Shown: one piece after another, positions 639 through 12,394 of the stretch
Numbering within the stretch: position 1 is the stretch's first letter
Layout: each line of letters starts with the position of its first letter
Assembly: GCA_023954495.1 (NCBI GenBank)
Contig: JAMLIA010000009.1
Location: 1-61,395, forward strand
DNA from: Thermomicrobiales bacterium
GTDB lineage: Bacteria > Chloroflexota > Chloroflexia > Thermomicrobiales > CFX8
DNA: 61,395 bases
Direction: 5' to 3'
Position numbers and translations under genes: made by a program
The notes under the pieces: model-generated
Told to the model about the DNA's origin: nothing
The model's database searches: none
What the model saw: the letters and a program-made list of their open reading frames with translations, nothing else

Positions 639-1949
639 TCACTCTACACGCTGATTCGCAGTCGCGCGACCCGTCAGCACCGGCTGCGCCGACGTCGATA
701 TGGTCCGGATCTCGGGGTTCAGGAACGTCAGGATGGCGATCAAGGAAAACAGCCCTGCGATCCCCGCCAGGACGACTGTGACGGCGACGCTATCCAGGAT
801 GAATCCGGCGAGGACAACGCCGACTGGTGACGCAATCTGCACCATCGCCATCAGGCTGGAATAGACGCGACCAAGGTGGCTCTCCGGCACGCGCTCCTGC
901 AGGATGACCATGAGCGTCGCGTTGATCGGGCCGTTCGCCAGCCCCATCGCCGCAGCGCCGATGACGCTGAGCGCAACCCAGGTTGACCACGGCAGCGACC
1001 ACAATCCAACTGCCATCAGCGCGACACCACCGAGCAGGAGCTTAATGCGCGGTAGCCGCTCGCCGACGATTCCGTAAAGGATCGTTCCGACCAGCGAGCC
1101 ACCGCCGAATCCGGCGATGATCAGTCCGAGCACGCGCGGATCGTCGAAGACCTCTTTGGCATAGACCGGCAGAGCCACCGCAAAGAGCGCGCTGAACAGC
1201 AGATTCGCACCGACAGAGACCTGAATAATCGCCCGCAGGAAGCTATCGGACAGGATCAGCTTCGCGCCGGCGAGCGATTCACGCAGCACATTGGCTTCGC
1301 CAGCCTCCTCCGCTGCCTGCGCCTCTTCCGTCCGCTGCCACGGAACGAGCACGGCAACCATTAGCGCCGAGATGGCGAATGACCCGGCATCGAGGAAGAG
1401 CACGGTCGTCGCGCCAAGAACTGACATGAGAAAGCCCGCCGCGAGCGGGCCGATGACCATCGCCGCCGCGCTGGCCATCTGCATGCCGGCATTCGCGCGC
1501 TCCAGCGACATGCCGGTTCTGGCGCTCAGGCCGGGAATCATCGACTGCCGCGCAGCCGCACCGGGGATGTCGAGCAGCGCACCCATGAATACCAGCACCA
1601 GCAAGTGCCAGAACTGCAGCATGTCCGCCAGGTGCAGGATCGGGATGAGGACGACGGTCAGACCGCTGAAGATGTCGCTGACGACACTCGCGCGCTTGAA
1701 CCCGACGCGATCGACGACGAGGCCACCGGCCATCCCGGCCACGACGACCGGCAGCAGCGACGCGAAGGCGACGATGCCGGTGCGCGAGGCGCTGCCGGTC
1801 GTGATATAGACGAACCAGGGGATAACCAGCGCAGTGAGCGAGTTGCCGGTCAGCGATATGCCGCTCGCCAACACGAGGAACGGAATCGCCAGGCGATCCC
1901 TCCGCGTTGGGTTGTCCGACCCCGCCGGTCGCTCGACAACGGTATTCAT
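639..1949 (-). CDS. MFS transporter (MFS_3/macrolide-efflux type), paralogue 4
   Basis: A 436-residue integral membrane protein with about 12 hydrophobic segments. The family exports drugs or siderophores by proton antiport (known for MefA-like and enterobactin-exporter-like members; the substrate here is not evident). Landmarks are PWFVYITTGSAS after helix 1, DRVGFKR between helices 2 and 3, and FWHLLVLVFMGALLD before helix 4, all shared with the MFS genes at 3520, 5567 and 6829. Its ATG is 1 bp after the stop of the DUF4097 gene, so translation is probably coupled. The C-terminal tail is polar. It is one of four paralogues that look like products of tandem duplication. Confidence 0.88.
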   Translation of the reverse strand: MNTVVERPAGSDNPTRRDRLAIPFLVLASGISLTGNSLTALVIPWFVYITTGSASRTGIVAFASLLPVVVAGMAGGLVVDRVGFKRASVVSDIFSGLTVVLIPILHLADMLQFWHLLVLVFMGALLDIPGAAARQSMIPGLSARTGMSLERANAGMQMASAAAMVIGPLAAGFLMSVLGATTVLFLDAGSFAISALMVAVLVPWQRTEEAQAAEEAGEANVLRESLAGAKLILSDSFLRAIIQVSVGANLLFSALFAVALPVYAKEVFDDPRVLGLIIAGFGGGSLVGTILYGIVGERLPRIKLLLGGVALMAVGLWSLPWSTWVALSVIGAAAMGLANGPINATLMVILQERVPESHLGRVYSSLMAMVQIASPVGVVLAGFILDSVAVTVVLAGIAGLFSLIAILTFLNPEIRTISTSAQPVLTGRATANQRVE

Positions 1950-1950
1950 G

Positions 1951-3438
1951 TCAATCTTCCTGCTGCGCGGGCCGGCTGGGACCGAGTGCGTTGAGCATGC
2001 GATCCGCGTCCGCCACCGAGATTTCGCCGCGCGACAGGGCGTCGAGGATCGCCCGCATCTGCTGATCGCGCGTCAGAACCGGTACATGGGTGGTCGTCTC
2101 TTCGGGCGCTGTGGATAGCGAAACGACGGAATTCGGTGCGGATGGCGGCGTCGGTGCCAGTGGCGGGCTCGGAGCGACAGGCGGCTGTGGCGGCTGCGGG
2201 GCCGTCGGCACCAGCCGGACGCGGATGTCGCCGCGCTCCGTCCGCAGCTTCAGATCGACCCGCTGCGTCGAAGACGGATCTGTGACGCCCACATAGCGCT
2301 GCGTCGCGCCGCGCGGGCCGGGCCGACCGACGCTGACCAGCGGAACATCAGACTGAATCTCACCACCGGCCAACAACGCCTCAACCCGCACCGGCACGCC
2401 GGATTGCAGGGCCAGGGTAATGTCGCCCGATGATGTTTCCGCTGAGAACGAGCCAGTGTCGGCGTCGTCGCTGGTCGAAAAAGTGACGCCATGGTCGCCG
2501 GCGTGGAAGCTGAATCCGCCTTTGGTGAAACGCAGGCCAGCGTCTCCCGCCTCCAGGTCGAAGCCACCACGGGAAATCCGCAACCCCTTGTCATCGGCAG
2601 CAAACGACAATCCCTTCGAGCGCAGGATGCGGGAGACAAGGCCGTCGTCATCCGCATCGGGCTGCCCGTGCGGTTGCGATGGCGGCGGCAGCAACTGTGT
2701 GTTGCAGACGATGTCCCCGCGCGCCGTCTCGATATCCATACCCACCAGGCTACCGGCGCGAATGACGACGTCACCACTGCCAATCTTGACCGTCAGGTTC
2801 TGGCTGCGCGGGCGCGTGACAGTCACGTCACCGGTGCCCATTTTGGCGACAATGGAGCCCGTCGAATCGACGATCGACACATCACCACTACCCAGCTTCA
2901 GATCCAGCCTGCCGTCGATCGAGTCGCAGGTGACATCGCCCTTGCCCAGCGACAGCGTCCCGACAGCCGCGGAGGTCGCGATCTGAACATCGCCACTTCC
3001 GACGCTCATCGCTATCCGGCCGACGCAATTCGCGAGGCGCGCATCGCCCTTACCCAGCGTGTAGGTCAGATCGCCAGAGCCGCCATCGACCCGCAGATTG
3101 CCCTGCCCGTGGCGTATTTCCACCGCGCCTTCGATGCCGCTGAGATAAATATCTCCGCGCTCGAGGCTGCCGTTGATCGGCGGACAACCGGTGGTCGGCA
3201 CCGTCAGCACCGGCGAGCTGTTTGAGCTGCGCCCGCGCTGATAGATGATGATCGTGTCGCCCTCGCGAACCAGTGACGGATCGCCGCTCTTCGAGCCGGG
3301 CGAGAGGTACACCTGCCCGACCATTGCCGGGTCGGCGATGACCGAGATGTTCGTGTGCTCACAGTCCAGTCGGATCCAGTTGATTCCTTCTAGCGAGCCG
3401 GGATGGTCCGCAGCTCGCGTTTCATCAATCTCTGCCAT
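1951..3438 (-). CDS. DUF4097-type beta-repeat protein with C-terminal SHOCT-like domain
   Basis: About 495 residues from the ATG at 3438, preferred because GAGGTGA sits 6 bp upstream; a GTG at 3447 is the alternative. The middle (roughly residues 100-240) is a run of about 20-residue repeats centred on G(S/T)GDV, typical of the right-handed beta structure of DUF4097/toast-rack proteins. A proline-rich linker (about 420-450) leads to a final domain containing ILDALSRGEISV, like the SHOCT-like tail of YvlB/LiaX proteins. No signal peptide or membrane segment is visible, so it is probably cytoplasmic or membrane-peripheral. LiaX-type relatives sense cell-envelope or antibiotic stress (family knowledge); here it lies between MFS genes, suggesting it senses or modulates their cargo (inference). 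Confidence 0.8.
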   Translation of the reverse strand: MAEIDETRAADHPGSLEGINWIRLDCEHTNISVIADPAMVGQVYLSPGSKSGDPSLVREGDTIIIYQRGRSSNSSPVLTVPTTGCPPINGSLERGDIYLSGIEGAVEIRHGQGNLRVDGGSGDLTYTLGKGDARLANCVGRIAMSVGSGDVQIATSAAVGTLSLGKGDVTCDSIDGRLDLKLGSGDVSIVDSTGSIVAKMGTGDVTVTRPRSQNLTVKIGSGDVVIRAGSLVGMDIETARGDIVCNTQLLPPPSQPHGQPDADDDGLVSRILRSKGLSFAADDKGLRISRGGFDLEAGDAGLRFTKGGFSFHAGDHGVTFSTSDDADTGSFSAETSSGDITLALQSGVPVRVEALLAGGEIQSDVPLVSVGRPGPRGATQRYVGVTDPSSTQRVDLKLRTERGDIRVRLVPTAPQPPQPPVAPSPPLAPTPPSAPNSVVSLSTAPEETTTHVPVLTRDQQMRAILDALSRGEISVADADRMLNALGPSRPAQQED

Positions 3439-3519
3439 CAGGCTCACCTCGATTTCTTCGTGCGTCGCTCATCTGGCGAAACGCAGGATAACCACAATAG
3501 AACGAAGGACGCAGTGCGA

Positions 3520-4779
3520 TCATGCCGACGCTGCACCGGCCCGGGCGGCAGTGCCTGGGGGCAGGTCCATCTCGCGCAATGCAGACACGCGCAACATGCT
3601 CAGCGCTGCGAGGACGTAGATCACGGCGACGCCTCCAATCGCGAGCGTCAGGCCGGCCCACTCAACCAGGTATCCGGCCAGCAATCTGCCAATCGGAATC
3701 GCCAGCCAGGCGATGCTGGTGATGACGCCGAACACGCGTCCGCGCAGCTCGGGCGGCACCCGCTCCTGATTGACCGTCATGAGAATCGGATTCAGCGGAC
3801 CAGCGCCAAACCCACGAACAACCAGCGCCGCCAGCGTCAGCACCAGCACCGGTGTGAACGCCAGCGTGATCAGCGGCACGCCAGCGAGGACGAACGACGC
3901 AATGTACAGATTCCGCCGCGGCATACGATGCCCGACCGCCGCGAACATCAGCGTCGTGACGACCGCACCGGCTCCGTGGGCCGCCAGCATCAGCCCCAGG
4001 CTGGCGGCAGACCCGTAGACCTCGACGGCGTAGACCGGGATGATCAGGCCGATCATCGCGTCGATGAAGTTCATCATCGAGACCTGAACGACCAGACAGA
4101 GGATCAGCCCGTCGCGCCGAATGAAGTCGAATCCCACGCGCAGGTCGTCGCGGTAGCCGCTGGTGACACGCCGCTCCTCGTGCTCTCTGGCCATGCTGGC
4201 CGGAATGCAGAGAATCAGTGCTGCCGAGACCAGGAAGCTCGCCGCGTCAATCCACAGCGCGGCATCAACGCCAGCCCCGGCAATGACCAGACCGGCGATC
4301 GGCGCGCCGAGCAGATACGACGCGCGCTGAATCAGTTGCTCGATCGCATTCACCCGCTCCAGCTTCATCGCGGCGCGCTCAGCCAGGTCGGGCAACAGCG
4401 ACATGCGCGCCGTCGTACCGGGCGTGTCCAGCAACCCGCCGATGAACACCAGCACGAGCAATTGCCAGAACGCCAGCCCGACCGTCAGCGCCATCAGCGG
4501 GATCGCCGCGACGGCGACGCTGCTGATGATGTCGGAAACGATGCTCATGCGCCGGAAGCCGACCCGGTCGACGAGCGCTCCGCCGAAGACACCGGCGATG
4601 ATGAACGGCAGCGCAGCCGCGAAGCCGGTCAGCCCGGCCTGCGAGGCACTGCCGGTCGTCTCCAGCACGTACCACGGAATCGCGATCAGCGCGAAGACGT
4701 TGCCCAGCATTGAGACCGCATTCGCGGCCAGCAGGGCGAAGAGCGGCAGGCGCGCTCGCGACTCGGGCGAAAGGATCAT
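3520..4779 (-). CDS. MFS transporter, paralogue 3
   Basis: A 419-residue, 12-helix MFS protein. It carries the set shared by the locus: PWYVLETTGSAS after helix 1, DRVGFRRMSIVSD as motif A, FWQLLVLVFIGGLLD before helix 4 and RVPPELRGRVFG near helix 10. The start ATG overlaps the stop of the toast-rack gene (ATGA, 4776-4779), so the two are translationally coupled. Likely role is efflux of a small amphipathic compound (inferred from family; substrate unknown). The 81 bp between its stop and the ATG of the next gene is the longest gap in the operon and could hold an internal promoter, but I see no convincing -35/-10. Confidence 0.88.
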   Translation of the reverse strand: MILSPESRARLPLFALLAANAVSMLGNVFALIAIPWYVLETTGSASQAGLTGFAAALPFIIAGVFGGALVDRVGFRRMSIVSDIISSVAVAAIPLMALTVGLAFWQLLVLVFIGGLLDTPGTTARMSLLPDLAERAAMKLERVNAIEQLIQRASYLLGAPIAGLVIAGAGVDAALWIDAASFLVSAALILCIPASMAREHEERRVTSGYRDDLRVGFDFIRRDGLILCLVVQVSMMNFIDAMIGLIIPVYAVEVYGSAASLGLMLAAHGAGAVVTTLMFAAVGHRMPRRNLYIASFVLAGVPLITLAFTPVLVLTLAALVVRGFGAGPLNPILMTVNQERVPPELRGRVFGVITSIAWLAIPIGRLLAGYLVEWAGLTLAIGGVAVIYVLAALSMLRVSALREMDLPPGTAARAGAASA

Positions 4780-5570
4780 CGGGTGTCTGCCTCAATGGTC
4801 AGCGAGCCAACTCCGGTTGACAGGTCGAGTCGCATGATCGGCATGCCATCAGCTGCCGGGCGCGACCAGTTGCCCGGCTGCCCGTGCAACCCATGCGCGC
4901 GAATTGCTCCGAGTGATGTCGTCGCTCGCACTTCCAGACCGACCGCGTCCGGCAGACGCACCCGGATCGAGCCAGTCGCCGCCTGCAACCGGACAGCGCA
5001 ATCGCTCTCCCAGATGCCGCGCAGGTCGACATCGAGCGAGCCGGTGCTCGCGCTGACATCCACCGTCGCCAGGGCAGCGAACTGACCGGTCAGCTGTAGC
5101 CCGATCGTGCCGGTTGAGCCTTCAATGCGCACCTGCCGCAGATTGTCCTGCCGCCCGGCGATGGTCAGCGTTGACTCGCCAGTCGCCTGATCGATCGAAA
5201 CGTTGCGCAGGGCCAGCGCTGAGAGGTTGTAGGTGCCATCGCCAGTCGAATGAACGATTTCCAGATCGAGCGGAATGCGGTTCGACAGCGCGATGTCCCA
5301 CTCATTGCGACCCCGGTTGGATGATCGTCCGCTCGGCGTGGACTGGCAGACCGTCATCCTGCCGGTGCCGTCCGTCTCCTCGTAGTTGAGCACCGGCTCC
5401 AGCTCGGGCGTGTAGCGGAATGCACCGTCGAGGAGGTCTGATGCGCTGCCGGAAATCCGCAGCACGCCGACGTGCATACCGACCCGGGCGACGACATGAT
5501 CTGCGGTACCAGTCGGCAATGTGTGGTGGGCGAACTGCTCGGCAACGTTCTTCGAGCGACCAAAGATCAT
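4776..5570 (-). CDS. Toast-rack (DUF2154/DUF4097-like) family protein
   Basis: 264 residues from the ATG at 5570, which overlaps the stop of the upstream MFS gene (ATGA). The open frame continues further upstream, but that part is antisense-like noise inside the MFS gene. Residues about 25-70 (GVLRISGSASDLLDGAF then EPVLNYEE) match the toast_rack N-terminal domain; the rest is a beta-rich repeat array with G(S/T)G turns (STGTIGLQL, STGSLDV, ATGSIRV). No signal peptide or transmembrane helix. Related domains occur in LiaF/YvlB-type cell-wall stress proteins (family knowledge). It is coupled on both sides to MFS genes, an unusual arrangement. Confidence 0.82.
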   Translation of the reverse strand: MIFGRSKNVAEQFAHHTLPTGTADHVVARVGMHVGVLRISGSASDLLDGAFRYTPELEPVLNYEETDGTGRMTVCQSTPSGRSSNRGRNEWDIALSNRIPLDLEIVHSTGDGTYNLSALALRNVSIDQATGESTLTIAGRQDNLRQVRIEGSTGTIGLQLTGQFAALATVDVSASTGSLDVDLRGIWESDCAVRLQAATGSIRVRLPDAVGLEVRATTSLGAIRAHGLHGQPGNWSRPAADGMPIMRLDLSTGVGSLTIEADTR

Positions 5571-6832
5571 GCGACCTCCTCCAGGGCGAGTGCAGGGCGA
5601 CCGGGCATACGCGCCGGTGTCTGCATCTGGCGAAATACCGGGATGAACCAGAACAGCGAAACAACGAGACAGTTGCTGACAGCCATGAAGAGCAGTGTGG
5701 TCTGCAGGCCCATCCGCTCCAGAAGCAGGCCGTACATGAGCATGCCGATCGGGCTGGTAGTCATGCTGACCGCGCCGATCAGGCCGAAGACGCGACCACG
5801 CATCTGCTCCGGAATGCGTTCCTGCATGATCGTCATCGAGAGTGGGTTGGCGGGTTCCAGCGCCGTCGCGTTGACGACGATCGCACCAGCGACGATCCAC
5901 AGCGGCGGGATCAGGACCAGCAACCAGAAGGTCAGCGCCCGCACGGTGAAGCCACCGACGTAGACCAGGCGGCGGGGCAGGCGATGCCCGCGTGCGGCAT
6001 AGATCAGCGCACCGACGATCGATCCGCCGCCCAGAGCCGAGTAGAGAACACCGAGGTCGAGCGCCGAGCCGAGCACATCGCGGGCGTAGACCGGCAGCAC
6101 AACCACGTAGAGCGGCTCCGCCAGCAGGCTGCCCAGCGTCGACATCGCGATCATCCCGAGCACCAGCCGATCGCCGCGAATGAACCGCAGTCCCTCAGCA
6201 ATCTCGGTGAGATAGCTGCCCCGCTCGGAGAGATGCGCGGCGCGCAAGAACGGCAGTCCGACCGTCAGGATCGTCGCCGAGATGACGAACGAACCGGCGT
6301 TGACGAAGAGCGCACCCTCCGGGCCGATAAAGGCGAGCGCGGCTCCGGCGAGCGGCGCGCCGAACATCGCAGCAATCCGCCGGACGATCGCCCACAGCGA
6401 ATTGGCGCGCTCCAGCGTCATCCCGGCCCGCGCCGCCAGGTCGGGATACAGACTCGTGCGAGCGGTCGCACCCGGCGCATCGAGCAGCGCCCCAGCGAAC
6501 ACGAGGACGAGCAGGAGCCAGAACGGTAGCGAGCCGATCAGATAGAACAGCGGGATAAGCGCGACCGAACCCGCGCTGGCGAGGTCGGACATGATCGCCA
6601 TGCGGCGATAGCCGATCCGCTCGACCATCCCACCGGCAAACGCACCGGAGATGATCAGCGGCAGCAATCCGGTCGCGGCGACAATGCCCATCTTGCCCGC
6701 GCTGCCGGTGGTCTCCAACACGAACCAGGGGATCGCAATATTCGAGAACTGGTTCCCCAGATGCGAGATCAGGTTCGCAACCAGCATCGCCCGGAGCGGC
6801 AGCGCCGAGGATCCTCGCCAACGCCGGATCAT
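5567..6832 (-). CDS. MFS transporter, paralogue 2
   Basis: 421 residues with about 12 membrane helices and the locus-specific MFS signatures: PWFVLETTGSAGKMG after helix 1, ERIGYRRMAIMSD in the 2-3 loop, FWLLLVLVFAGALLD before helix 4 and RIPEQMRGRVFG in the C half. Its ATG overlaps the stop of the MFS gene upstream by 4 bp (ATGA) and its own stop overlaps the toast-rack start. Probable proton-driven exporter of unknown substrate. The GSAGKMG stretch is shared with paralogue 1 but not with paralogues 3 and 4, suggesting that 1 and 2 are the closest pair. Confidence 0.88.
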   Translation of the reverse strand: MIRRWRGSSALPLRAMLVANLISHLGNQFSNIAIPWFVLETTGSAGKMGIVAATGLLPLIISGAFAGGMVERIGYRRMAIMSDLASAGSVALIPLFYLIGSLPFWLLLVLVFAGALLDAPGATARTSLYPDLAARAGMTLERANSLWAIVRRIAAMFGAPLAGAALAFIGPEGALFVNAGSFVISATILTVGLPFLRAAHLSERGSYLTEIAEGLRFIRGDRLVLGMIAMSTLGSLLAEPLYVVVLPVYARDVLGSALDLGVLYSALGGGSIVGALIYAARGHRLPRRLVYVGGFTVRALTFWLLVLIPPLWIVAGAIVVNATALEPANPLSMTIMQERIPEQMRGRVFGLIGAVSMTTSPIGMLMYGLLLERMGLQTTLLFMAVSNCLVVSLFWFIPVFRQMQTPARMPGRPALALEEVA

Positions 6833-8097
6833 GCGGCGCTCCCCTCAGCGACCGGCCGCGACTCATCGAGCCGGTGGATCGCCGGGACGAAGAACATCGC
6901 GATGGCCAGCGCCTGCGACAGAATCGCGATCGCGAGGATCGTTCCGCGCATGCCGAGGCGTTCGATCGACAGGCCAGCAAGCAGCATCCCAAGTGGTGCG
7001 GCGACTTGCGAGATTGCCGAGAAGGTGCTGAAGACACGCCCGCGCAGTTCCGCAGGAATACGCTCGTGGCGGACTGTCACCAGCAACGGGTTGAGTGGAC
7101 CGACGACGAGCGCACCGATGACGATGCCGCCCATGATGACCGCCAGATTGGTCGAGAACAGCAGCACCCAGGTCGAAGCCGTCGTCAGCATGTAGCCGAG
7201 AATCCAGAGGAACCTTCGCGGCAGTCGGTGGCCGGCGACCCCGTAGAACACCGCGCCAGTCAGCGCGCCGATGCCGAAGGCTGCCGCGATCAGGCCCAGG
7301 CGTGTCGGATCGTCCCAGGTGCGCTTGACGAAGACCGGCAGGACGACCGAGACAATCGGGCTGTTGACAAAGTTCGAGATCGCCAGACCGGCCGCCAGGA
7401 CGAGCAACACATCGTCACCACGAAGAAACCGGAAGCCCGCTTTCAAATCCTCGACGTAACGGCTGCCGGTGCGCGGACGAGATGGAAACAGCCGCGCCGG
7501 AACTGCCAGCACTACGACGAGCGCCGAGATGGCAAACGTGCAGGCGTCGAACAACAGAACGTTGTCAGCGCCGATCATCGCGATCAGCAACCCCGCGAGT
7601 GGCGGCGCGACAAGCAACGCAGCGAACTGAGTGCCCTCAAAGACCGAGTTGGCTGATTCGAGCCGCATCCGACCGGCGGCAGCCAGCTCCGGGATCATTG
7701 AGCGACGCGCGGTGAGGCCGGGGATGGCCAGCAGTTCCGCCATGAACACCAGCACCAGCAATTCCCAGAAGGCCAGTCCGACCGTGTGATGGAGGATCGG
7801 CACCAACGCGACCGAGACAGCACTGACCAGATCGGCGGCCACACTGACGTGGCGGAACCCGATGCGATCAACGAGCGCCCCACCAAACACGCCCATCAGG
7901 AAGCCGGGCAGCGCGATGACGAAGGCGGTAAGCCCCATCTTGCCGGCACTGCCGGTCGTCTCCAGCACGAACCACGGCAACGCAACCATCGTCAGCATGC
8001 TGCCGATGAGCGAAATGGCGTTGCCGCCGAGAAACGCGAAGATCGGCAGACGAGCCGAGGCTGTTGGATTAGCGACTGCGACGTCGGCTGCCATCAT
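6829..8097 (-). CDS. MFS transporter, paralogue 1
   Basis: 422 residues, 12-helix MFS protein, second gene of the operon and 11 bp downstream of the DUF2089 regulator. Two consecutive ATGs are possible starts, preceded by GGGAGAGC. Signatures are PWFVLETTGSAGKMG, DRIGFRHVSVAAD, FWELLVLVFMAELLAIPG and RIPAELRGRVFS. Family membership suggests efflux of a toxic or signalling small molecule; the substrate cannot be read from the sequence. Its stop overlaps the next MFS start (6829-6832), so two full MFS genes are coupled back to back. Confidence 0.88.
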   Translation of the reverse strand: MMAADVAVANPTASARLPIFAFLGGNAISLIGSMLTMVALPWFVLETTGSAGKMGLTAFVIALPGFLMGVFGGALVDRIGFRHVSVAADLVSAVSVALVPILHHTVGLAFWELLVLVFMAELLAIPGLTARRSMIPELAAAGRMRLESANSVFEGTQFAALLVAPPLAGLLIAMIGADNVLLFDACTFAISALVVVLAVPARLFPSRPRTGSRYVEDLKAGFRFLRGDDVLLVLAAGLAISNFVNSPIVSVVLPVFVKRTWDDPTRLGLIAAAFGIGALTGAVFYGVAGHRLPRRFLWILGYMLTTASTWVLLFSTNLAVIMGGIVIGALVVGPLNPLLVTVRHERIPAELRGRVFSTFSAISQVAAPLGMLLAGLSIERLGMRGTILAIAILSQALAIAMFFVPAIHRLDESRPVAEGSAA

Positions 8098-8108
8098 GCT
8101 CTCCCGAC

Positions 8109-8507
8109 TCAGGCTTCGCTGGCCAGGCGGCGGAGCATCGACATGCCCTCGTCCGGCGAGAGGCGTCCGTCCGCGACGCGCGCCAGAATCTCTTCGCGGT
8201 TGAGCTCGTCGGCCTCCGACTCCGGCGAGCCGCTCTCCTCAGTAAAGGCAGCGATGAGGTCATCCAGCTTGGCGCGAACGGTCGGGTAGGAAACGCCGAG
8301 CGAGCGCTCGACATCTGACAGATTGCCGCGACTCATCACGAAGAGCCGCAGAAACGCCTGTTGCTCCTGCGACAGGCGCAGGGTCGGCGCAGCCGGAGAT
8401 GGCGCGGCGAACGACCCACGAATCTGGATGTCGCAGGTCGGGCAATAGAGCTCCCGAACGATGAGCTCACCTTCACAACTGGGGCAGGAATTGATCTGAA
8501 TCGACAC
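8109..8507 (-). CDS. DUF2089 family regulator (zinc ribbon + HTH + SHOCT-like tail)
   Basis: 132 residues from a GTG at 8507 with a strong AAGGAGGAAG ribosome site. The N-terminus is a zinc ribbon (C8-x2-C11 and C22-x2-C25). The middle (about 45-85) is a helix-turn-helix of the DUF2089 type: LSQEQQAFLRLFVMSRGNLSD then LGVSYPTVRAKLDDL. The C-terminus (REEILARVADGRLS...GMSMLRRL) is a SHOCT-like segment resembling the tail of the DUF4097 protein at 1951. As the first gene after the promoter at 8529-8557, it probably controls its own operon (inference). DUF2089 proteins are predicted DNA-binding regulators; no ligand is known to me. Confidence 0.85.
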   Translation of the reverse strand: MSIQINSCPSCEGELIVRELYCPTCDIQIRGSFAAPSPAAPTLRLSQEQQAFLRLFVMSRGNLSDVERSLGVSYPTVRAKLDDLIAAFTEESGSPESEADELNREEILARVADGRLSPDEGMSMLRRLASEA

Positions 8508-8528
8508 GGTTCTTCCTCCTTCGCCGCT

Positions 8529-8557
8529 ATCCTAGCGAGGAAGAGAACCATTGTCAA
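8529..8557 (-). promoter_or_regulatory. SigmaA-type promoter of the DUF2089/MFS operon
   Basis: On the minus strand a perfect -35 TTGACA (8552-8557) is followed by exactly 17 bp and a -10 TAGGAT (8529-8534). The predicted transcript starts near 8522, giving a leader of about 15 nt that contains the AAGGAGG site of the GTG at 8507. This is among the clearest promoters in the window and supports the whole 8507-to-left block as one transcription unit. Confidence 0.75.
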
Positions 8558-8566
8558 GTGTTTTTG

Positions 8567-8598
8567 AACTGATTTTTACTTTTTCTTTTGAATCAGTT
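8567..8598. promoter_or_regulatory. AT-rich inverted repeat upstream of the operon promoter
   Basis: AACTGATT (8567-8574) and AATCAGTT (8591-8598) are perfect inverted 8-mers separated by 16 very AT-rich bases in otherwise GC-rich DNA. The site lies about 10 bp upstream of the -35 and touches the stop of the XRE gene. It could be an operator for a regulator such as the DUF2089 or XRE protein, or a weak terminator of the XRE gene. There is no T tract after the stem on the minus strand, so I favour a binding site. Confidence 0.4.
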
Positions 8599-9079
8599 AC
8601 CGACTCTCAAAATCAGGATGATGATCGTTAGCTGCTGGTAGCGCCAGCTGGCGGATATCGCTGCGCTGCAGTTGCGCAGGTTGGTCGCGCCGATCGAAGC
8701 AGGCGCGCAGGACCGCCCGCACAATGTCGAGGTCGCGCCGATCCAGCTCCGGCAAGCGCCGCAGGTAGAGCAGCAGCTCCGGATCGTCCAGCCCGACGCC
8801 GATCGCATCGAGCGTGACATCGCCGGGCAGCGCCAACCCTGCCTGCGCATAGAGCTCGGTCCAGGAGTGCCCCATCGCCCCGCAGACGCGGGTCAGCACA
8901 TCCAGCCCCGGACGGCCGGGCTGGCCGCGCTCCAGACGCGACAGATAGCCGCGACTGACACCGGCGCGCGCGGCGAGCTCATCCTGCGTCCAGCCAAGCT
9001 CGCGCCGCCAGCGCGCCAGCACCGGCCCCAGCACGCGCCCGGTCGGGTCCGTTCCGTCTAGCGTCAGCGATCGTGACAT
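8597..9079 (-). CDS. XRE-family helix-turn-helix regulator
   Basis: 160 residues. Residues about 18-75 form a Cro/C1-type HTH (RELGWTQDELAARAGVSRGYLSRLERGQPGRPGLDVLTRVCGAMG). The C-terminal half is mainly helical and charged (LDDPELLLYLRRLPELDRRDLDIVRAVLRA) and may mediate dimerisation. No metal-binding or enzymatic motif is visible. It lies upstream of, and in the same direction as, the DUF2089/MFS operon but is separated from it by that operon's own promoter. It could regulate the neighbouring efflux genes (inference). Confidence 0.85.
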   Translation of the reverse strand: MSRSLTLDGTDPTGRVLGPVLARWRRELGWTQDELAARAGVSRGYLSRLERGQPGRPGLDVLTRVCGAMGHSWTELYAQAGLALPGDVTLDAIGVGLDDPELLLYLRRLPELDRRDLDIVRAVLRACFDRRDQPAQLQRSDIRQLALPAANDHHPDFESR

Positions 9080-9682: not shown

Positions 9683-10981
9683 TCAGGGCTGAACAGTTGA
9701 CTGTGATACATCTGGAATGACATCAGGAATATCTACCGGCGTGCTTTCGATATTGCGCAGGCTGTACGAGGCAAATCCCAGGACGCAGGCGAGCGTGGCC
9801 AGGATTCCGCCACCGATAAACACCGCTCTGACACCATAGGCGTCGGCCAACGGCCCGAAGAGCGCGAGGCCAATCGGCCCGGCAAGTGCCCAGACCATCA
9901 TAAACAGTGAAAGAACGCGGCCCTGATAGTGGTTTGGGACGACCGTTTGGAGGATGGCTCGCGACGGCACCATGCCAATGGCGTAGGTCACGCCCGAGAC
10001 AAACCACCAGAACACTGCCATCCAGAACATGCTGGCTGGCATGAGCGCCGCCAATGCCACCGTCGCGCAGGAGAGTGCGAAGGTGACGAGCATCACGGTA
10101 ACGCGGCGCTGCCGAAATGCCATGACACTCGCAATCAGCCCACCGACAACCACACCTGCGCCACCGCCGCCTTCCATGACGGCAATCGCGTTGACACCGG
10201 CGTGGAAGTACTGCTGCACCAGCAAAGGGGCCATCGCAAATGCCGGCATGATCGTCAGCAGCATGAGAACGTTGATGATCCACATCGCTGCTAGCCCGCG
10301 ATGCCCGAAGACGACCCTGACTCCGGCCCGCGTGTCGGACCACATGCTGCGTGCTGCCTGGGAGACGACGCGGGTCTGTGGAATTGCGAAGAAGAACAGC
10401 GGCACGATGCCGAGCAGCGCGGTCGACACGTCGATCATCAGCGCCCACTGCAACGGCAGCAGCGCAAGCGCCAGGGCCGCAGCTGGCGCAGCAACGATGC
10501 TGCACAAGCCCATCACGAGCTGGTTCATGCCGACGGCACGCGACAGCCACGATGTCGGCACGAGCATGGCGGTGCTCGCCGCTGCGGCCGGCGACTGGAA
10601 TGCCTGCATCGCGCTTCGAATCGCCATCAGCGTATAGATGTGCCAGAGCGCAACTCGATCGACGGCAAACAGGATGACAAGGATGACCATGCACAGCGCT
10701 GTGATTGCGTCAGTCAGGATCATGATCAGCCGACGGTCATAGCGGTCGGCAACAACGCCGGCAAAGATGCCAAGTACCCCCTGGGGCAACATCGCAGCAA
10801 TACCGGCGGCGGCCAACACACTCGCCGAACCGGTAGTCAGGGTGAGCCACCAGATGAGAACGAATTGTGTGAGAAAGCTGCCGAAGAGCGAGACCGATTG
10901 CCCGATCAGGATCACAAAGAATCTGACCCGCCACGGCTCGTCTTCACGCGGTTCGCGGTGAACGCTCAACGACTGGTTCAT
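9683..10981 (-). CDS. MFS transporter controlled by adjacent TetR
   Basis: 432 residues with about 12 membrane helices, MFS_3-like (ADRYDRRLIMILTDA in the 2-3 loop, VVPNHYQGRVLSLFMMVWALAGPIG in the C half). It is more distant from the 0.6-8.1 kb cluster but of the same broad class (TTGSASVLAAAGIAAMLP after helix 1). Its ATG overlaps the TetR stop (10978-10981), so it is the TetR-regulated member of a two-gene operon. The arrangement is the usual one for inducible multidrug or antibiotic efflux (family knowledge); the inducer is unknown. Confidence 0.87.
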   Translation of the reverse strand: MNQSLSVHREPREDEPWRVRFFVILIGQSVSLFGSFLTQFVLIWWLTLTTGSASVLAAAGIAAMLPQGVLGIFAGVVADRYDRRLIMILTDAITALCMVILVILFAVDRVALWHIYTLMAIRSAMQAFQSPAAAASTAMLVPTSWLSRAVGMNQLVMGLCSIVAAPAAALALALLPLQWALMIDVSTALLGIVPLFFFAIPQTRVVSQAARSMWSDTRAGVRVVFGHRGLAAMWIINVLMLLTIMPAFAMAPLLVQQYFHAGVNAIAVMEGGGGAGVVVGGLIASVMAFRQRRVTVMLVTFALSCATVALAALMPASMFWMAVFWWFVSGVTYAIGMVPSRAILQTVVPNHYQGRVLSLFMMVWALAGPIGLALFGPLADAYGVRAVFIGGGILATLACVLGFASYSLRNIESTPVDIPDVIPDVSQSTVQP

Positions 10982-11708: not shown

Positions 11709-12263
11709 TTACTCGGATTCCCGGCGCTTCCACAATCCGTTCGACGGCACTCGCAGGGCGCGGTTGAACTTACTGGATGCATTCTCCCAGGCGATAATCT
11801 CGGTCAGCTCAACGATGGCGTCATCGTCAAACTGCTCGCGAACGCGGGCAAAGAGTTCGTCGTCGACATCGCGATCAGAGAAGGTCATGGCGTCGGCGTA
11901 GGCGAGGGCGACGCTGTCGCGTTCGTCGAAGAGGCCGCTGGCTTCCCAATCGTCGGTCAGTGCGTCAAGCTGGTCATCCGAGACACCAAGGTGGCTGCCG
12001 ACGGCAGCGTTGATGTCCGTTCAGAACTCGCAACCATTGATTGATGCCACGCGGCGATTCAGGATCGCTGTCAGTCTCGCGTCGATCAAGCCCGACTCGG
12101 CAAGCGCGGCCCACATTCCTTTGGCCGCGCGATAGATCGGCTCGCGCCGGGCGTAGAGGACATGGCCACCGAACGGACGACCAGACTTACGCACCTGCTG
12201 CTCAATCGGGCGACGCAGGTCGTCGGGTAGCTGGGTGTAATCGGCTCCAGGGATACGGGTCAT
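11709..12263 (-). CDS. AhpD-like carboxymuconolactone decarboxylase family protein; candidate selenoprotein (CxxU)
   Basis: Reading from the ATG at 12263 (SD GGGAGG, 7-bp spacing) the frame runs to a TAA at 11709-11711 with a single internal TGA at 12021-12023, codon 81. The region reads LNRRVASINGCEF-TGA-TDINAAVGSHLG. In AhpD/CMD proteins this is the CxxC redox motif, and the TGA falls exactly on the second cysteine, the reactive one in AhpD. Downstream sequence remains a good CMD protein (SGLFDERDSVALAYADAM, VELTEIIAWENASSKFNRAL), with no further stop or frameshift. A stem-loop with SECIS geometry begins right after the TGA. I therefore read it as a 184-residue selenoprotein with peroxidase- or disulfide-type redox function. 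The alternative is a nonsense-mutated pseudogene or a sequencing error. Confidence 0.72.
11983..12016 (-). promoter_or_regulatory. Candidate bacterial SECIS stem-loop
   Basis: On the minus strand, 4 nt after the TGA, ACATCAA pairs with TTGGTGT (one G-U). Inside it, GCTGCC-GTC-GGCAGC (11994-12008) makes a perfect 6-bp stem with a 3-nt loop. The apical loop begins 18 nt after the TGA and its first base is G. This fits the known bacterial SECIS pattern (stem-loop within the ORF just after UGA, loop about 16-37 nt away, G among the first loop bases). The element is in coding sequence, as expected for bacteria. Confidence 0.6.
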
Positions 12264-12394
12264 CGTAATGCCTCCCGCGTTTCGACACATCGTTGTGCCA
12301 CTCACCGTGCAGGCTAGCACACCGTCACGCACCGTCGAGAGCCACTACAATCGCCCGGGGGAAGCCACTGCGGCACAAGTGAGGAGACGCGATC

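Follow-up and report, generated by a model that had tools for sequence, protein, structure and literature searches.

The window analysed here is a stretch of 61,395 nucleotides (positions 1 to 61,395 of contig JAMLIA010000009.1, from the draft assembly GCA_023954495.1 of a Thermomicrobiales bacterium), and on its minus strand, at 11709-12263, lies a gene for a predicted CMD/AhpD-like selenoprotein. The reading frame runs from an ATG at 12263 to a TAA at 11711-11709 and yields 184 residues when its sole internal stop, a TGA at 12023-12021 (codon 81), is read as selenocysteine (Sec, U); this codon takes the second cysteine position of a CxxC-type redox motif, N-G-C78-E-F-U81. A Shine-Dalgarno-like GGGAGG is seen by eye in the upstream sequence, just 5' of the ATG (approximately 12268-12273, minus strand). 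The original prediction, which described an otherwise intact frame with one TGA in place of the second Cys of the motif, protein-like codons on both sides of it and a normal ribosome site, is right in each of these points; its interval of 11709-12263 is also correct, but it gave no strand, and the gene is on the minus strand. A plus-strand reading of the same interval was rejected, the frame there being meaningless.

Within the window 187 TGA codons join two longish open stretches, and 18 of these, including the TGA of the AhpD-like gene, have coding-like base composition on both sides; among the 18 the AhpD-like gene alone carries a CxxU redox motif. Its neighbours are a divergently oriented gene for a TcuA-like FAD dehydrogenase and, downstream, genes for a TetR regulator and a Mef-like MFS transporter. 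Five MFS transporter genes are found on the minus strand of the window (639-1949, 3520-4779, 5567-6832, 6829-8097, and 9683-10981), alternating with genes for repeat-rich proteins at 1951-3447 and 4776-5900; the gene at 9683-10981, the one of the five that was searched, encodes the Mef-like protein, a member of an H+ antiporter family.

The encoded protein matches the CMD family (PF02627) with 29.5 bits, above the gathering cut-off of 23. By far its best NCBIfam match is NF053654 (GroundWater_YciW, 'YciW-related (seleno)protein'), which aligns residues 1-180 with positions 1-179 of the 179-position model (E 1.3e-74); its score of 249.8 bits falls short of the equivalog cut-off, 310. All 12 sequences of one alignment match the same model. 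The AlphaFold model (pLDDT 95.6, pTM 0.90) is all-helical with an AhpD-type fold, and the nearest solved structures found by Foldseek are AhpD of D. radiodurans (6k40, TM 0.86), three peroxidase-related proteins (2prr, 2oyo, and 2pfx), and Bmp8, a debrominase (6ohi/6ohj, TM 0.76-0.81). A sequence profile search returned the same set of AhpD, peroxidase-related proteins, and Bmp8. Around the CxxC motif of AhpD there are a Glu and a His that form a proton relay; Ala66 and Asn85 of the window protein align with them, so the relay residues are absent. Among the 12 orthologues of the order, Ala occupies the first of these positions in nearly all and Asn the second in every one, while in CxxC homologues of the order Glu is present in 8/10 and His in 9/10. 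The relay may plausibly be dispensable where a selenolate, ionised at neutral pH, takes the place of the thiol.

Genomic context offers little guidance to function. The window genes beside the AhpD-like gene do not include ahpC, and no neighbour is conserved in the 80 loci compared: the largest shared cluster of neighbours occurs at 6 of them, and no cluster includes a neighbour from the window. Since the neighbourhood is not conserved, the substrate cannot be deduced from it.

The TGA at codon 81 is conserved wherever the close clade was sampled. A search of 61 genomes of the order gave 12 orthologues with 53-69% identity, all of which carry the codon-81 TGA. Among named genomes 80 loci were found, and the codon could be scored in 79 of them; it is TGA in all 79 and TGC or TGT in none, so that no Cys form of this close clade was seen among them. 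Such agreement lies far outside what chance would produce. The two sets overlap, as 12 loci of the order are identical in sequence to named loci. The named loci span about eight or more phyla, as placed by record titles with the titles of metagenome-assembled genomes taken as given: Chloroflexota (Thermomicrobiales, Ktedonobacteria, and Herpetosiphonaceae), Rubrobacter and other Actinomycetota, Acidobacteriota, Eremiobacterota, Rokubacteria, Gemmatimonadota, Planctomycetota, gamma- and deltaproteobacteria, and SAR324. Independent assemblies thus agree on the codon, and isolate genomes (Ktedonobacter racemifer, Dictyobacter aurantiacus, and Ktedonosporobacter rubrisoli) are among those that carry it. 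The TGA-bearing homologue in the complete Rubrobacter marinus genome is matched piecewise, as if the gene itself or its recorded sequence contained a frameshift.

Purifying selection is stronger downstream of the TGA than upstream of it: each of 11 comparisons made with the window gene gives a pN of 0.19-0.28 for the part after the TGA, lower than the 0.34-0.44 of the part before it, so the downstream half is translated and constrained. Farther afield, a phylum-wide search found more distant CMD proteins, some with one TGA and others with none. Both Sec and Cys forms thus occur in the superfamily, whereas the sampled members of the close clade all have Sec. One more distant CxxU homologue has a second in-frame TGA where its relatives have Trp (GHU versus GHW/GCW), which may be a TGG-to-TGA change, a sequencing error, or decay.

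Bacterial SECIS elements are stem-loops just 3' of the UGA with a G opening the loop, and the window gene has such a structure closely downstream of codon 81. The putative element (11991-12011, minus strand; AAC GCUGCC-GUC-GGCAGC CAC) consists of a 6-bp stem, which starts 12 nt after the UGA, and a 3-nt loop with G as its first base; the core folds with -10.0 kcal/mol. Energy alone is less decisive, because 1.7% of synonymous recodings fold as well. Across the 79 sequences the stem pairs 15-29, 16-28, 17-27, 18-26, and 19-25 form in 76-79, and the sixth, loop-proximal pair forms in 46. The paired Ala codon is GCT in 75/79 sequences versus 10/79 at a control Ala (Fisher p ~3e-28), and GCT is a minor Ala codon in the window (49/400). 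The motif CGCUGCC...GGCAGCG is absent from the ten Cys homologues compared. By fold, pairing, and synonymous constraint, the hairpin fits a putative bacterial SECIS element held in place by synonymous codon choice.

The original prediction had proposed a search of the same genome for the Sec machinery, and this was successful for the three protein-coding genes: selA (407 bits), selB (328 bits), and selD (355 bits) are all present, while tRNA-Sec was not found in the draft. The selD frame has an in-frame TGA of its own (...SCAGUAAK...), so that SelD itself appears, from its sequence, to be a selenoprotein. This gene is located at 7789-8727 on the minus strand of another contig (C99), preceded on the same strand by a thioredoxin-like gene. 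Located 3' of selB, on the same contig (C57; L058:9175-9446), is a T-box leader RNA (Rfam RF00230, 101.9 bits).

The tRNA-Sec gene was sought in this draft assembly by covariance model, by pattern, and by similarity to a relative's gene, and was found by none of these; the pattern was a poor guess, as relatives have TCTTCAAAA around the anticodon. Weaker matches to the tRNA-Sec model in this genome were rejected, being tRNA-Ser, tRNA-Leu, tRNA-Gly, and tRNA-Trp according to ARAGORN. Nor was tRNA-Sec found in the sole other genome of the genus, despite the presence of selB there. The draft yields 42 tRNA genes, and tRNA-Phe and tRNA-Gly(GCC) are not among them; tRNA-Phe is a gene that no cell can lose, and therefore tRNA genes are missing from the assembly. 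Of 46 genomes of the order with selB, 15, this one included, have no clear tRNA-Sec; within the same family, a clear one, its anticodon UCA, is present in three genomes. Assembly loss is the likeliest explanation of the gap; that both genomes of the genus are without the gene may be a coincidence or may be meaningful. Elsewhere in the code UGA behaves as usual: 11 of the 18 window genes checked end in TGA, the tRNA-Trp found has a CCA anticodon only, and the tRNA-Cys found has GCA.

The reading that best accounts for these observations, with a probability of about 0.95, is that the gene encodes a single-domain redox protein of the CMD/AhpD fold, belonging to a clade with Sec fixed in place of the second Cys of CxxC. 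The Sec reading of the original prediction is thus upheld by selA, selB, and selD, by the SECIS-type hairpin, by the stronger downstream purifying selection, and by the homologue alignment it had suggested, which shows TGA and never Cys at codon 81 of the scored close loci. The sequence itself shows the invariant TGA and the hairpin that follows it, the genes of the Sec machinery, the CxxU motif, and the fold; from these we infer that Sec is incorporated in the cell, that the protein is redox-active, and what kind of substrate it has. Recognition of the small hairpin, 12 nt downstream of the UGA, by a complex of SelB, GTP, and Sec-tRNA would lead to insertion of Sec instead of termination. In AhpD the second Cys of CxxC is the one that attacks peroxide. 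AhpD-like chemistry is likely here, in which the selenolate of U81 would attack an oxidised substrate, probably a peroxide or other electrophile; C78 would resolve the intermediate as a selenenylsulfide, which would then be reduced by a cellular thiol system.

Two other accounts of the TGA deny that it is a Sec codon. The frame comes from a draft assembly and the TGA is its sole lesion, which would suit a pseudogene or truncated gene, whether through a recent mutation to a stop codon or through an error in sequencing; however, the same TGA recurs at every scored named locus, in independent assemblies of which some are of isolates, and the half of the gene after it is the more conserved half. 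The original prediction had named unrelated stops in close relatives as the sign of a pseudogene, and close homologues instead share this same TGA. With conserved coding sequence downstream and an invariant TGA, the pseudogene reading is already refuted, its chances being practically nil. It is very improbable that the UGA is decoded as some other residue, be it Cys through an unusual tRNA with a UCA anticodon or Trp through a general change of code. Such decoding would suit the missing tRNA-Sec in this assembly and that of its congener, as well as the Cys that homologues in the wider family have at this position, but it is at odds with the presence of SelA, SelB, and SelD, with the TGA within selD, and with the clear tRNA-Sec (UCA) of three genomes of the same family. 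The assembly has lost tRNA genes, tRNA-Phe among them, and the only tRNA-Trp and tRNA-Cys genes found have CCA and GCA anticodons. The ordinary use of TGA as a stop in the window led us to reject a general TGA-to-Trp change.

A further alternative accepts the selenoprotein and questions its substrate: the protein could be, instead of a peroxidase, a reductase of another electrophile, for example one resembling reductive dehalogenases (Bmp8 and the deiodinases), with Sec fixed for that reason. Bmp8 is among both the nearest folds and the sequence matches, the window protein and almost every close orthologue have Ala/Asn where the relay Glu/His is retained by most CxxC homologues in the order, and no Cys form occurs among the 79 loci. 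However, a number of AhpD and peroxidase-related structures are matched just as closely, genes for halogenated compounds do not adjoin the gene, whose neighbourhood is not conserved, and a substrate cannot be read from the fixation of Sec; a reductase role of this kind is unlikely. A broader proposal is that the clade forms a Sec-only branch of CMD/AhpD proteins, in which Sec has replaced the Glu-His relay together with the catalytic Cys, leaving a selenium-only active site that perhaps acts on a non-peroxide substrate, as in reductive dehalogenation; this is conceivable, although still rather doubtful.

If the protein is, as preferred here, a Sec-fixed redox protein of the CMD/AhpD fold, a standard gene caller would end its gene at residue 80 and lose the C-terminal half along with the catalytic residue, and the same would happen in every relative checked. 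The lineage, whose named relatives are labelled Thermomicrobiales, Thermomicrobiaceae, or Sphaerobacteraceae, would make selenocysteine and have at least three TGA-containing selenoprotein genes. Another CMD/AhpD-like gene of the same genome, from a different subfamily, is found on contig C85 (L011:1408-1929, plus strand; core at 4639-4884), where an in-frame TGA replaces the second Cys of its CxxC motif (NGCGFU). Reading frames for amidase (endolysin)-like and small membrane (holin)-like proteins, possibly of phage origin, lie next to it. That Sec is fixed over about eight or more phyla, that a Cys form was not seen and that the relay is lost together offer a useful lead on why some enzymes are unable to revert to cysteine.

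Among known systems the protein is closest to NF053654, which it resembles over its full length and whose own name allows for a selenoprotein, although it scores below the equivalog cut-off of that model. Peroxidase-related CMD proteins (TIGR01926; 2oyo, 2prr, 2pfx, and 6k40) are similar in fold and have a CxxC-type site; the window protein differs from them in scoring 29.6 against a TIGR01926 cut-off of 81.8, in having Sec for the second Cys, and in having Ala and Asn at the relay Glu and His positions. AhpD of Mycobacterium tuberculosis (1knc and 1gu9), an all-helical member of the same superfamily with a CxxC motif, is a weak Foldseek match (TM 0.44-0.46, E ~4), and its relay residues are not conserved in the window protein. 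E. coli YciW has in common with the window protein a COG name and an AhpD-like domain (PMC11429811), but such domains number two in YciW and their cysteines are spaced differently (PMC11429811), whereas the window protein has one domain with CxxU; the role in cysteine metabolism proposed for YciW is therefore not transferable.

Replacement of Cys by Sec in AhpD-like proteins had indeed been reported before, as the original prediction stated: by 2008 the Global Ocean Sampling survey described 'AhpD-like 1' (COG2128, CxxU) from 299 Sec and 902 Cys sequences (Zhang and Gladyshev, 2008; PMC2398784), and reviews also list an AhpD-like CxxU selenoprotein family (PMC9312934; PMC13188914). The COG2128 AhpD-like selenoproteins of the YciW group share their superfamily and CxxU motif with the window protein, but the surveys found many Cys homologues, whereas the clade described here has Sec at 79/79 scored loci. 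Neither the lineage nor the motif is new, since CxxU AhpD-like proteins have long been known and NCBIfam models the family; the window gene almost certainly encodes a real selenoprotein that is a somewhat divergent member of this already catalogued family.
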